Shown here: positions 12,396 to 15,345 of the stretch, piece after piece
How positions within the stretch are numbered: position 1 is the stretch's first letter
How the letters are laid out: every line of letters begins with the position of its first letter
Source of the DNA: an uncultured Lachnospiraceae bacterium
GTDB lineage: Bacteria; Bacillota; Clostridia; Lachnospirales; Lachnospiraceae
Direction: 5' to 3'
DNA length: 39,116 nucleotides
Assembly (NCBI GenBank): GCA_944380025.1
Contig: CALWGL010000002.1
Location: 1 to 39,116 of the forward strand
Program-made: the position numbers and the translations under genes
Notes under the pieces: model-generated
Databases searched by the model: none
What the model was told of the DNA's origin: nothing
Seen by the model: only the letters and a program-made list of their open reading frames with translations

Positions 12396-12920
12396 CTACG
12401 CCAGGACCGTCATCAGCAGGATCCCGAACAGACCGATCCCCGCCCCGACGGGCAGAAGGATCAGCCACAAAAGACGCAGGCTCTGCAGGGAACCGCAGAA
12501 CGCCTTTTCCGGCTTTCCCGGCACATAATGCACCTCCATGGCGCTGCCGGCCGGGAACCAGTCCCGGACCGGATCCACATGGTTCAGGCAGTGCCGGGAA
12601 GCGTAGCAGTGCAGAACGTATTTCTCATCCAGCACCCAGTCCGCTTCCGCTTTTTTCACACTGTTATAACAGACGGCCGTATACCGCTGTTCGCACCGCA
12701 GGCGTTTTCCTTCCGCCGTATATTCCACCACGGCGCAGGGATAGCGCACGGAAACGTTTTCCGTGCTGCTTTGCCGCCATTTATGGGATACCACGGTTCC
12801 CATCACGCTTCCGCTGTAGCGGTATTTTCTGGTCTCGTCCCAGATCAGGATGCCGAACGCCGCCAGGCAGAACAGAAGTCCTATCACCAGGATCCAAAAT
12901 CCTGCTTCCTGATTCGTCAT
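12396..12920 (-). CDS. Two-helix membrane protein (DUF3592-like), coupled to the retron RT
   Basis: A 174-aa protein with one hydrophobic segment at each end (about residues 8-28, GFWILVIGLLFCLAAFGILIW, and 148-170) and a soluble middle domain of about 115 residues containing YPCAVVEYTAEGKRL and WFPAGSAMEVHYVPGKP. This arrangement matches the DUF3592 group. The start is the ATG at 12920 with GGGGAGGAAAAAAC upstream. It overlaps the reverse transcriptase stop by 4 bp (ATGA), so the two are translated together. Some retrons, such as Ec48, use a small two-transmembrane protein downstream of the RT as toxic effector. By position and topology this could be one, but DUF3592 proteins also occur alone, so the role is inference. 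Confidence 0.6.
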   Translation of the reverse strand: MTNQEAGFWILVIGLLFCLAAFGILIWDETRKYRYSGSVMGTVVSHKWRQSSTENVSVRYPCAVVEYTAEGKRLRCEQRYTAVCYNSVKKAEADWVLDEKYVLHCYASRHCLNHVDPVRDWFPAGSAMEVHYVPGKPEKAFCGSLQSLRLLWLILLPVGAGIGLFGILLMTVLA

Positions 12921-14080
12921 GTTTTTTCCTCCCCTGTCCTTTCGTCTTCCCCGCCCCGCATCTGCCATGCGGCCGCGGCCCGGAGCATCTCTCCGCATGC
13001 CTCCCGGTATCCCAGAAACTCCCGGTTCTCCGGCTCCATCTGCAGCACGTACCCGATCCGTCCCCGCAGCGACTGCAGGAAGGCGTACTCTTCTGCGGCT
13101 GTCTCCGCTTCTCTTTCCGCTTCCGTTTCCGCCTTCCCTGCCCGTTCCGCCTCTGCTTTCCCTTCCGCCTTCCTTTCCGCTTCCGTTTCCGATTTCCTTT
13201 CCGCTTCCGTCCCGTCCAGCTTTCCCGCAGCTCTCAGATGCTCCCGCACGCCGAATTTTGTGCAGTAATACATTTCCTGCCGGATCCTCCTGCGGTACGC
13301 GGCGTCCGTCCGGACACGGTCGTTTACCACAAGCCCCGTAACGCTCTGCCGCATCCCCTGCCTGGCCATGACCGTCTTTTTCCGGTTCACTTCAAAGCCC
13401 ATGACTCTCAGAAAGCCCTCCGCCCTGCGGAAAACCTCCTTCCCATCGAACGATCCGGAAAAAGCCAGATCGTCGCAGTAGCGGGTATAGGCGATCTGCC
13501 GCTCTTCACACCATTTTCCCATGAAATCGTCAAAGGGCTTCATCACCAGGTTGGAAATGGCCGGCGACGTGGGAGCTCCCTGAGGAAGCCGGTCGTAACA
13601 GCAGCACAGATGGGTCAGCAGCCCCGCGGCCGCCGGCGGAAACAGGCTCTCCGGAAACGCCGCCACATACACCCTCGGAAAAAGGATGCTGTCAAAAAAG
13701 TCCCGGATGTCCAGCTTCAGAAGGATTTTGTCCTTTTCCCCGCCCGCATGAGGCGCGGCATTGTCAAGCGGCGACAGCCCCCGCCGGTAGGCGCAGGCGT
13801 GGGCGGATACGCTGCGTCCGTCCAGACAGTGATGCAGGATATTCCTCTGCACGCTCTTCAACAGCCCGTCCGGCACCAGAAGCCTGCGGCTTCCGCCGTT
13901 TTTCTTCGGGATCCGCGCCCTCCGGTAATGACGTTCCGTGTGGTTGCTCAGGGCATACAGCAGGGAAAGCTGCGCCTCCCCGCTCATGCGCTCCCGCATG
14001 CCGGCGGGAAGCAGGTTCAGGGACAGGATAAATTCCTTTTCCTGCTGCGTGCCGCAGTATTTCCAGAACTGACCGCTCAT
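12917..14080 (-). CDS. Retron-type reverse transcriptase
   Basis: A 387-aa RNA-directed DNA polymerase. Residues 107-111 are NAAPH, the NAxxH motif characteristic of retron RTs; motif A is LKLDIRDFFDSI (121-132), then LPQGAPTSPAISN (165-177), the catalytic YCDD (201-204, Cys in place of the common Ala) and VTG (247-249), the second retron hallmark. No maturase or integrase domain follows. Residues about 291-330 are a low-complexity EAERK-type insertion in the thumb region. The start is the ATG at 14080, supported by GGGAGGCAGGT; upstream codons in frame cover the hairpin region. Retron RTs make multicopy single-stranded DNA from an adjacent RNA and act in anti-phage defence with an effector. 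Here the partner is probably the overlapping membrane protein. Confidence 0.9.
   Translation of the reverse strand: MSGQFWKYCGTQQEKEFILSLNLLPAGMRERMSGEAQLSLLYALSNHTERHYRRARIPKKNGGSRRLLVPDGLLKSVQRNILHHCLDGRSVSAHACAYRRGLSPLDNAAPHAGGEKDKILLKLDIRDFFDSILFPRVYVAAFPESLFPPAAAGLLTHLCCCYDRLPQGAPTSPAISNLVMKPFDDFMGKWCEERQIAYTRYCDDLAFSGSFDGKEVFRRAEGFLRVMGFEVNRKKTVMARQGMRQSVTGLVVNDRVRTDAAYRRRIRQEMYYCTKFGVREHLRAAGKLDGTEAERKSETEAERKAEGKAEAERAGKAETEAEREAETAAEEYAFLQSLRGRIGYVLQMEPENREFLGYREACGEMLRAAAAWQMRGGEDERTGEEKT
13091..13210. repeat. Low-complexity EAERK-coding repeats inside the RT gene
   Basis: About 120 bp of near-repetitive purine-rich coding sequence (minus strand) encode repeats such as TEAERK, AEGKAEAER and AETEAERE. 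The expansion keeps frame and lies after the VTG motif, in the segment that normally forms the thumb. Confidence 0.6.
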
Positions 14081-14148: not shown

Positions 14149-14376
14149 AAATCCCCTTCCGGCACAATACGCTGATTCCGCAGAATGCGCAGGGGTACAG
14201 CCGAAGGCGGCAACACAATCCGCGAAGCGGAATTGTGCGTTGTACCCTGAAGCAGGCTGCGGTGCAGGCCATCCTGCCTTCTCCCGATCCTGTCTCCCGG
14301 CGGCGACTCGCCGCCGGTCCGAAGCTTTGCGCAGCCCTGACGTCTGCCTCCGGTTTCTCTGCCGGCAGGGGATTTC
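14149..14376 (-). ncRNA. Candidate retron msr-msd RNA
   Basis: On the minus strand the segment starts with AAATCCCCT (14375-14367) and ends with AGGGGATTT (14157-14149), a perfect 9-bp inverted repeat in the a1/a2 position, 69 bp before the RT start. A G directly follows a1 (14366), where retrons place the branching guanosine. Then come a small CCGG stem, a strong CCGGCGGC/GCCGCCGG hairpin, GCAGG/CCTGC, and a branched stem CAGGGTACA/TGTACCC-CTG enclosing CACAATTCCGC/GCGGATTGTG and GCCG/CGGC hairpins. Size (228 nt) and order suit a retron. An extended -10 promoter would start transcription at about 14376. The fold was made by eye, and the branched msd is unusual. Confidence 0.5.
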
Positions 14377-14382
14377 TTTTTC

Positions 14383-14492: not shown

Positions 14493-14550
14493 TATGATAT
14501 CTCTGCATGATATTTCTATATGATATCTCTGCATAATGAAATCTCTGCAT
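14493..14550. repeat. Short degenerate tandem repeats (TGATATCTCTGCA)
   Basis: Four adjoining variants of TGATATCTCTGCA, two of them identical, one shortened to TGATATTTCTA and one reading TGAAATCTCTGCA. They lie between the retron terminator and the large phased array. No function can be assigned. Confidence 0.5.
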
Positions 14551-14579
14551 GCTATCCTGACAGAGCGCCCCGGCAGGCT

Positions 14580-15185
14580 GGACGGTTAAAATTGGGAAAT
14601 TCCTGTCCTGTAACCGTACCAAAAACGCCCTGCGACGGTTAAAATCTGCCTTTCGAGGGCCTGGAACCGTACATTTTGGAGCTTCTGGAAAACCGATACG
14701 GTTAGGATCCGCCTTTCAGAAGCCTGGAACCGTACATTTTGGAGCCCTCGGCAGACCGGTACGGTTAGGATCTTCTTTCCGGGGGGGCCTGGAACCGTAC
14801 ATTTTGGAGCTCCTGGAAAACCGGTACGGTTAGGATCCGCCTTTCAGAAGCCTGGAACCGTACATTTTGGGATCCTGTACGGTTCCAAGCTGATTTTCGG
14901 GGACCTGGAACCGTACATTTTTGAATCTTGTACGGTTAGGATCTCCTTTTCAGGGTTTGGGAACCGTACATTTCAGATTTGGGTACGGTTAGATTCCATA
15001 TTTTTGAAAATGGAACCGTATCATGGCCTGATTTGACATCATATCAAAATGTACGGTTCCGAATGCCTTTCCATGTACGACTCTGAATGCCTTTCCATGT
15101 ACGACTCTGAATGCCTTTCCATGTGCGACTCTGAATGCCTTTCCATGTGCGACTCTGAATGCCTTTCCACGTTTCCCAACCGTAT
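14580..15185. repeat. Array of 18 alternating GTACGGTT / AACCGTAC sites in helical phase
   Basis: Forward sites (GTACGGTT or one/two-base variants) start at 14580, 14633, 14696, 14759, 14824, 14877, 14930, 14983 and 15051. Reverse sites (AACCGTAC or AACCGTAT) start at 14612, 14665, 14728, 14793, 14856, 14909, 14962, 15014 and 15178. Orientation alternates without exception. Forward-to-reverse distance is 31-32 bp (once 34, once 127 across the 24-bp repeats); reverse-to-forward is 21 or 31 bp (once 37). Almost all equal two or three DNA turns. Flanks are also conserved (TAGGATC after forward sites; TGG before and ATTTTGG after reverse sites). Not CRISPR: the repeats are too short and the spacers resemble each other. 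Confidence 0.85.
15052..15171. repeat. Five tandem 24-bp repeats derived from the array
   Basis: Five units of the form TACGACTCTGAATGCCTTTCCATG. The first still contains TACGGTT, so the block looks like an expansion starting from the ninth forward site; the later units have lost the site (TACGACT, then TGCGACT). The period of 24 bp does not fit whole helical turns, but the block as a whole leaves the last reverse site 127 bp (about 12 turns) from the ninth forward site. Confidence 0.85.
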
Positions 15186-15190
15186 ATGAG

Positions 15191-15345
15191 TGAAAATTTC
15201 GTATCAGTTCAGCCTTCGGCAGAACTGTTACGGCATCCGGCCATTCCAATCGCTTCGCGATGGGCCGGATGCTTCCTTCCTGTACGTTTTCGTACGGTCT
15301 GCGCAGGAAATGCGCAGACCTGGATGAACTGTTTCAAAATTTCCA
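15191..15345. repeat. MITE-like multi-hairpin inverted-repeat element, copy B
   Basis: The reverse complement of the core of copy A at 1934-2081, with the same GCATCCGGCC, CGTACGAAAACGTAC and GTCTGCGCA stems. Its ends form an imperfect terminal inverted repeat of about 22 bp (TGAAAATTTCGTATCAGTTCA against TGGAAATTTTGAAACAGTTCA). The outer ends differ from copy A while each copy keeps its own ends matched. It lies 8 bp after the ddh stop codon region and might serve as its transcript end. Confidence 0.75.

Follow-up and report, generated by a model that had tools for sequence, protein, structure and literature searches.

An array of phased inverted repeats in a Lachnospiraceae genome and its probable link to a family of nuclease-like proteins

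We analyzed a stretch of 39,116 nucleotides (the window) from an uncultured Lachnospiraceae bacterium, genome G000. The window contains an array of short alternating sites at 14580-15185. Sequence comparisons indicated that a nuclease-like protein, here named X, likely has a binding array of which the window array is a distal copy; the X gene lies beside a similar array on contig C253. The link between arrays and X ties a large family of nuclease-like proteins to DNA arrays with a readable code, which offers a handle on their function.

The window array and its copies in Eisenbergiella

The original prediction described nine GTACGGTT and nine AACCGTAC sites in strict alternation, and this was confirmed by locating the sites in the window sequence. 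Thirteen of the 18 sites are exact and five are inexact. Forward sites start at 14580, 14633, 14696, 14759, 14824, 14877, 14930, 14983 and 15051, and reverse sites at 14612, 14665, 14728, 14793, 14856, 14909, 14962, 15014 and 15178. The forward-to-reverse distances are 32, 32, 32, 34, 32, 32, 32, 31 and 127 bp, and the reverse-to-forward distances are 21, 31, 31, 31, 21, 21, 21 and 37 bp. The claims of 32 bp in six of nine cases and of 21 or 31 bp in seven of eight were thus both accurate. The whole window holds 31 matches to the sites with at most one mismatch, compared to 12.3 expected, and none of 100 shuffles contained as many. Sixteen of the 31 are packed into 479 bp. A chance origin of the array is excluded.

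The regular part of the array consists of eight inverted pairs at 14580-15021. The first three (14580-14619, 14633-14672 and 14696-14735) combine the inexact forward sites GGACGGTT, CGACGGTT (two mismatches) and ATACGGTT, respectively, with AACCGTAC at 32 bp. The spacing is 34 bp in pair 4 (14759-14800) and 32 bp in pairs 5, 6 and 7 (14824-14863, 14877-14916 and 14930-14969). In pair 8 (14983-15021), GTACGGTT is followed at 31 bp by AACCGTAT, which is also the reverse site at 15178. The ninth pair (15051-15185) is not counted in the regular part, because five 24-bp tandem repeats (15049-15169), which derive from a forward site, lengthen it to 127 bp. The last of these repeats retains GTACGGTT in the ortholog of the array in the relative G006. 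This ortholog has one unit fewer and identical spacings.

Other repeats are located at the edges of the array. Immediately to its left, 13-bp tandem repeats ATGATATCTCTGC occupy 14494-14556 and are fewer in the G006 ortholog. A 135-bp MITE-like insertion at 15201-15335 (GTATCAGTTCAGCC ... GAACTGTTTC), with an 8-bp target duplication AAAATTTC, is absent from that ortholog. It belongs to a second dispersed family of hairpin repeats, whose ends GTTACTGTTCAGCC are similar to those of the 490-bp element described below. No RNA family matches the array; the sole match in the window is a drum RNA at 2397-2510 (94 bits).

G000 contains 41 occurrences of GTACGGTT-N(10-30)-AACCGTAC. Most copies sit in a dispersed repeat of about 490 bp with six inverted pairs, spaced 31 bp forward-to-reverse and then 21 or 31 bp to the next site. 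This repeat carries terminal inverted repeats GTTACTTTTCAYGGG, and its 8-bp target duplications are perfect in 3 of 17 cases (null 0 of 272). Because of these two features we describe it as MITE-like. About half of the array loci sampled in G006 have flanks in common with a G000 copy. About 40 copies of the array core lie in this repeat, whereas no such ends were found around the window array, the arrays upstream of X or those in other genera. Two longer arrays lie outside them, the window array and the one on contig C253 (L005), and each has orthologs in G006 and G009. A search within the window for matches to the terminal inverted repeats flanking 14580-15185 gave none. The MITE-like element probably captured an array and spread it using a different transposase.

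Pairing of arrays with the X family

The C253 array is about 80% identical to the window array and ends just upstream of the gene for X, which has 276 residues. Blautia merdipullorum (L155) and Claveliimonas (L143) show the same order of array and X gene, which makes three genera with Eisenbergiella. The original prediction proposed a search of related genomes for arrays and linked genes. The arrays did recur and the X family is their conserved partner; the retron next to the window array is not. Outside the genus, X was detected in nine of ten array-bearing genomes, and none was detected in G063 (2.1 Mb), which also bears arrays. In G008 a single degenerate array is present and X is absent. 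Of the 250 Lachnospiraceae genomes sampled, 69 contain homologs of X (E 1e-30), and such genomes often carry several of them as paralogs.

The position of the arrays relative to X was analyzed in 115 non-identical homologs with at least 200 bp of upstream sequence. At a repeat score cut-off of 0.55, a repeat array is located upstream in 69 of 115, compared to downstream in 6 of 110 (Fisher p 1e-19), and 46 of the 115 have no clear upstream array at this score. The median distance between the array end and the X start codon is 104 bp. Motifs found upstream of other X genes include CAGTTGTAA/TTACAACTG, TCAGTCGG/CCGACTGA, TTTACTATGCC/GGCATAGTAAA, CTTATCCGCA/TGCGGATAAG and many more. All 28 pairs of X proteins with at least 65% identity have a motif in common, as do 16 of 57 pairs at 50-65% and about 2% of pairs below 50%. 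Several paralogs in one genome bear different motifs. X subclades have their own inverted-repeat motifs.

These patterns suggest that the X family probably binds the arrays upstream of its genes. X itself contains no recognized DNA-binding domain in a Pfam scan, and distal arrays are mostly found between genes or after gene ends, similar to BIMEs. Both observations could indicate that the arrays bind a different protein, such as a nucleoid or topology factor, and that X genes are merely adjacent. However, the motif changes with the X subclade and differs between paralogs in one genome, which a general factor would not explain, and we regard a different protein as very improbable.

The C-terminal 120 residues of X match nuclease-like models in PADLOC in all 22 members scanned. 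The best match is to PDC-S68 (8e-34), and HEAT_CxxC_PDDEXK is matched in 18 of 22. The motifs SK-E, Y-YE, PDF and EH-G are invariant in 22 sequences; the last lacks the usual lysine of the E...PD...(D/E)XK active site, its EH being invariant together with SK-E and PDF. The C-terminal domain is predicted to be PD-(D/E)XK-like. The same 22 members gave no Pfam match of any kind, including HUH Y1 transposases and toxin families such as the ToxN/AbiQ/CptN fold. Sequence searches gave no meaningful relative with a solved structure, and an AlphaFold model built from four sequences was too poor for a fold search.

Several X genes deviate from the common arrangement. G043, from another family, contains six homologs (L176, L181, L185-L188), most of them without upstream arrays, which have a CGATACTA element in common shortly before the start codon. 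In some Blautia-type genomes X is split into two frames (L200/L204, L201/L203 and L202/L205) and the arrays persist; the split genes are decayed copies or sequencing errors. At L166, L168, L169, L195, L196 and L202, in several genera, the X array starts just past the apparent 3' end of rpsI (KKYGLKAARRAPQFSKR). This suggests an old conserved locus for the array-X module.

A three-site pattern was scanned across GTDB contigs and found only in Lachnospiraceae-type genomes, namely Eisenbergiella from the avian gut, several avian Blautia, Claveliimonas monacensis and relatives. The genomes surveyed are mostly MAGs, with mechanical ORF calls. Outside Eisenbergiella the array interiors differ, and the sites and spacing are equal (30-31 plus 22 bp, period 52-53 bp). 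Dispersal was tested for three motifs and was strongly positive for GTACGGTT, positive for TCAGTCGG and negative for the Blautia CTAC-type motif, for which a strict-pattern search found no distal arrays. In the TCAGTCGG clade, one genome has two more multi-unit arrays between genes at loci unrelated to X, and distal copies are therefore not peculiar to GTACGGTT. A second array with arms CCCCACCG / CGGTGGGG and a period near 53 bp adjoins a distal TCAGTCGG array (L296, 2660-2930). It may contain the sites for another X paralog.

The three-site pattern is also present in two viral contigs (L161 916-1033 and L162 5247-5355). Their layout differs, a doubled GTACGGTTGTACGGTT being paired with AACCGTAC at 33 bp. 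Three matches to X in 'phages' proved to be unannotated faecal contigs, and plasmids contain only the C-terminal domain of X, inside ATPase genes. A viral origin of the arrays was rejected, since the motif in the two viral contigs is a different one and a search of viral contigs yielded no X.

Helical spacing and the nature of the sites

The periods of the arrays fall into discrete classes of 52-54 bp (30 arrays), 61-64 bp (13), 73-75 bp (11) and 85 bp (1), with few values between. They correspond to 5, 6, 7 or 8 helical turns. At a pitch of 10.5 bp the phase concentration of the periods is R=0.75, which none of 5000 random sets reached, and without the 53-bp class it is R=0.73. The X tree requires at least 12 changes between period classes. 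The quantization is therefore not one inherited length, and the arrays are not fully independent. The arrays illustrate how helical phasing is retained even as sequences change completely.

Spacing in homologous arrays, on which the original prediction had staked its reading, is not random and clusters over related units. Among 463 distinct related units, 438 have forward-to-reverse distances of 30-32 bp. About 275 reverse-to-forward distances were collected in the GTACGGTT clade, 188 of them at 21-22 bp and 67 at 31-32 bp. Across X clades, the forward-to-reverse spacing within units differs and shows no helical quantization (R=0.09). A-tracts lie preferentially on the coding strand of X (51 versus 10 of 61 informative arrays) and weakly favor spacings near 9 and 30 bp. 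Sigma-70 promoters show no regular position relative to the arrays.

To distinguish DNA sites from RNA hairpins, covariation was analyzed in 448 GTACGGTT-type units chosen by their ACGG core alone. At position 1, 15 compensatory changes were found versus 30.6 expected, together with 189 mismatched pairs. In 30 other array families, 3 changes are compensatory versus 99 in a single arm, and departure from the consensus is 4.7% in the arms versus 12.5% at other positions. Stem covariation between the arms is thus not enriched, in line with the original prediction that pairing is not clearly maintained by compensation. The sites appear to be conserved one by one, like DNA-binding sites, which favors DNA over RNA hairpins. 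The absence of arm covariation and the periods at the DNA pitch argue against a string of RNA hairpins. The spacings, the period steps of about 10.5 bp and the lack of compensation together favor sites on a single face of the DNA helix that are bound by protein, as had been proposed. Of the two outcomes named in advance as refuting this proposal, random spacing and stem covariation, neither was observed.

The genomic layout offers an argument for RNA. In type III toxin-antitoxin systems (ToxIN, CptIN, AbiQ), a gene-specific repeat array is located directly upstream of a nuclease-type gene (PMC8860590). The X loci are similar in the nuclease-like character of X and in the tandem repeats, which immediately precede the gene in 69 of 115 homologs. 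The array could then be transcribed into a repeat RNA that restrains the X nuclease, and the arrays do have an orientation with respect to X that is compatible with this, 51 of 61 having their A-tracts on its coding strand. However, X belongs to another protein family with no Pfam toxin match, the repeats are longer and quantized at the DNA pitch, the arms lack compensatory changes indicative of RNA, and arrays with the same motif are also located far from X. We consider RNA restraint of X very unlikely, marginally more so than binding of the arrays by a different protein.

The least probable explanation is plain satellite or MITE DNA produced by tandem duplication, for which spacing and neighboring gene are irrelevant. 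Many copies do lie within a MITE-like element, and arrays gain and lose units. On the other hand, motif and spacing are conserved across genera despite diverged interiors, the arms are more conserved than the remaining positions, and the periods are quantized. The strong enrichment upstream of X and the co-variation of motif and X also argue against it, and we give it almost no weight.

The probable binding of the arrays by X suggests a possible mechanism. Dimers of X would probably occupy the inverted pairs, and neighboring complexes may form an ordered assembly along a single face of the helix. Feedback control or retention of X may be the role of the array next to its gene. Distal arrays, the window array among them, would serve as further docking sites.

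Comparison with known systems and the neighboring retron

No earlier description of the arrays or of their pairing with X was found in the literature searched, with preprints and most subscription journals outside its scope. By analogy, the array-X pairs would work most like REP/BIME-RAYT pairs, and the locus resembles a type III toxin-antitoxin locus. We placed them in neither group because defining features of each were tested and were not found.

RAYT (TnpA-REP) genes have cognate REPs on their flanks, and in BIMEs the REPs are regularly spaced and alternate in orientation (PMC2817692). Complementary mutations reportedly maintain the REP palindromes (PMC2817692), whereas X arrays lack compensatory changes. 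Like the RAYT loci described there (PMC2817692), the X loci have a chromosomal gene beside cognate palindromic repeats that are specific to a subfamily, and in the GTACGGTT and TCAGTCGG clades the cognate repeats are extragenic, dispersed and alternating. These likenesses, the several X paralogs per genome and the variation in unit number between orthologous loci would fit a selfish RAYT/REPIN-like system. X would be a domesticated nuclease that recognizes inverted pairs and either copies or moves them, with the arrays as its non-autonomous passengers and both docking and phasing as by-products of the complex that mobilizes them. We consider such a system unlikely, although less so than the other alternatives. 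Most Eisenbergiella copies lie in a MITE with terminal inverted repeats and 8-bp duplications, which points to another transposase, and dispersal may be absent for many X arrays. The predicted PD-(D/E)XK-like protein X has no match to the HUH Y1 (IS200/IS605-like) transposases. Its arrays show no GTAG foot, have whole-turn periods and sit upstream of the gene.

Phased operator arrays and plasmid centromere arrays such as sopC consist of tandem inverted-repeat sites beside the gene for the binding protein, with helical phasing. The X arrays have the same tandem sites beside a gene and the same phasing. They differ in being chromosomal, in occupying many loci, and in their association with a nuclease-like protein that lacks a recognized DNA-binding domain.

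We also put forward a tentative proposal, to which we give slightly less than an even chance. The X family may represent a protein-DNA system of a new class. In it, every member of a chromosomal family of nuclease-like proteins would have evolved a private inverted-repeat code, displayed on helically quantized arrays. With the same reserve, these arrays, beside the gene and distal, may store, organize or direct the nuclease. Examples of such roles would be a defense nuclease held on DNA or a chromosome-organizing assembly. Array-X pairs are natural candidates for orthogonal protein-site pairs in studying the evolution of specificity.

The window array lies beside a retron, with which the original prediction considered an association. 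The reverse transcriptase gene (12917-14080) is of the Ec107 type (PADLOC RT_Ec107-like, 1.3e-124), and homologous retrons are found throughout the genus. The association did not hold. In G004 the retron region directly abuts the same neighboring dehydrogenase gene without an array, and the other array loci examined contain no retron. The likeness to Retron-Ec107-like systems is limited to the adjoining reverse transcriptase, and the array was rejected as a retron component on the grounds of the retron without an array at the same locus in G004 and the arrays elsewhere without retrons. The link between array and retron in the window is a coincidence. The lineage comprising G000, G006 and G009 appears to have gained the array between the retron and its neighboring gene. 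The retron ncRNA is likely located just upstream of the reverse transcriptase gene at about 14149-14381, the part conserved in relatives. The reverse transcriptase of G000 bears a low-complexity insert at 13104-13208.
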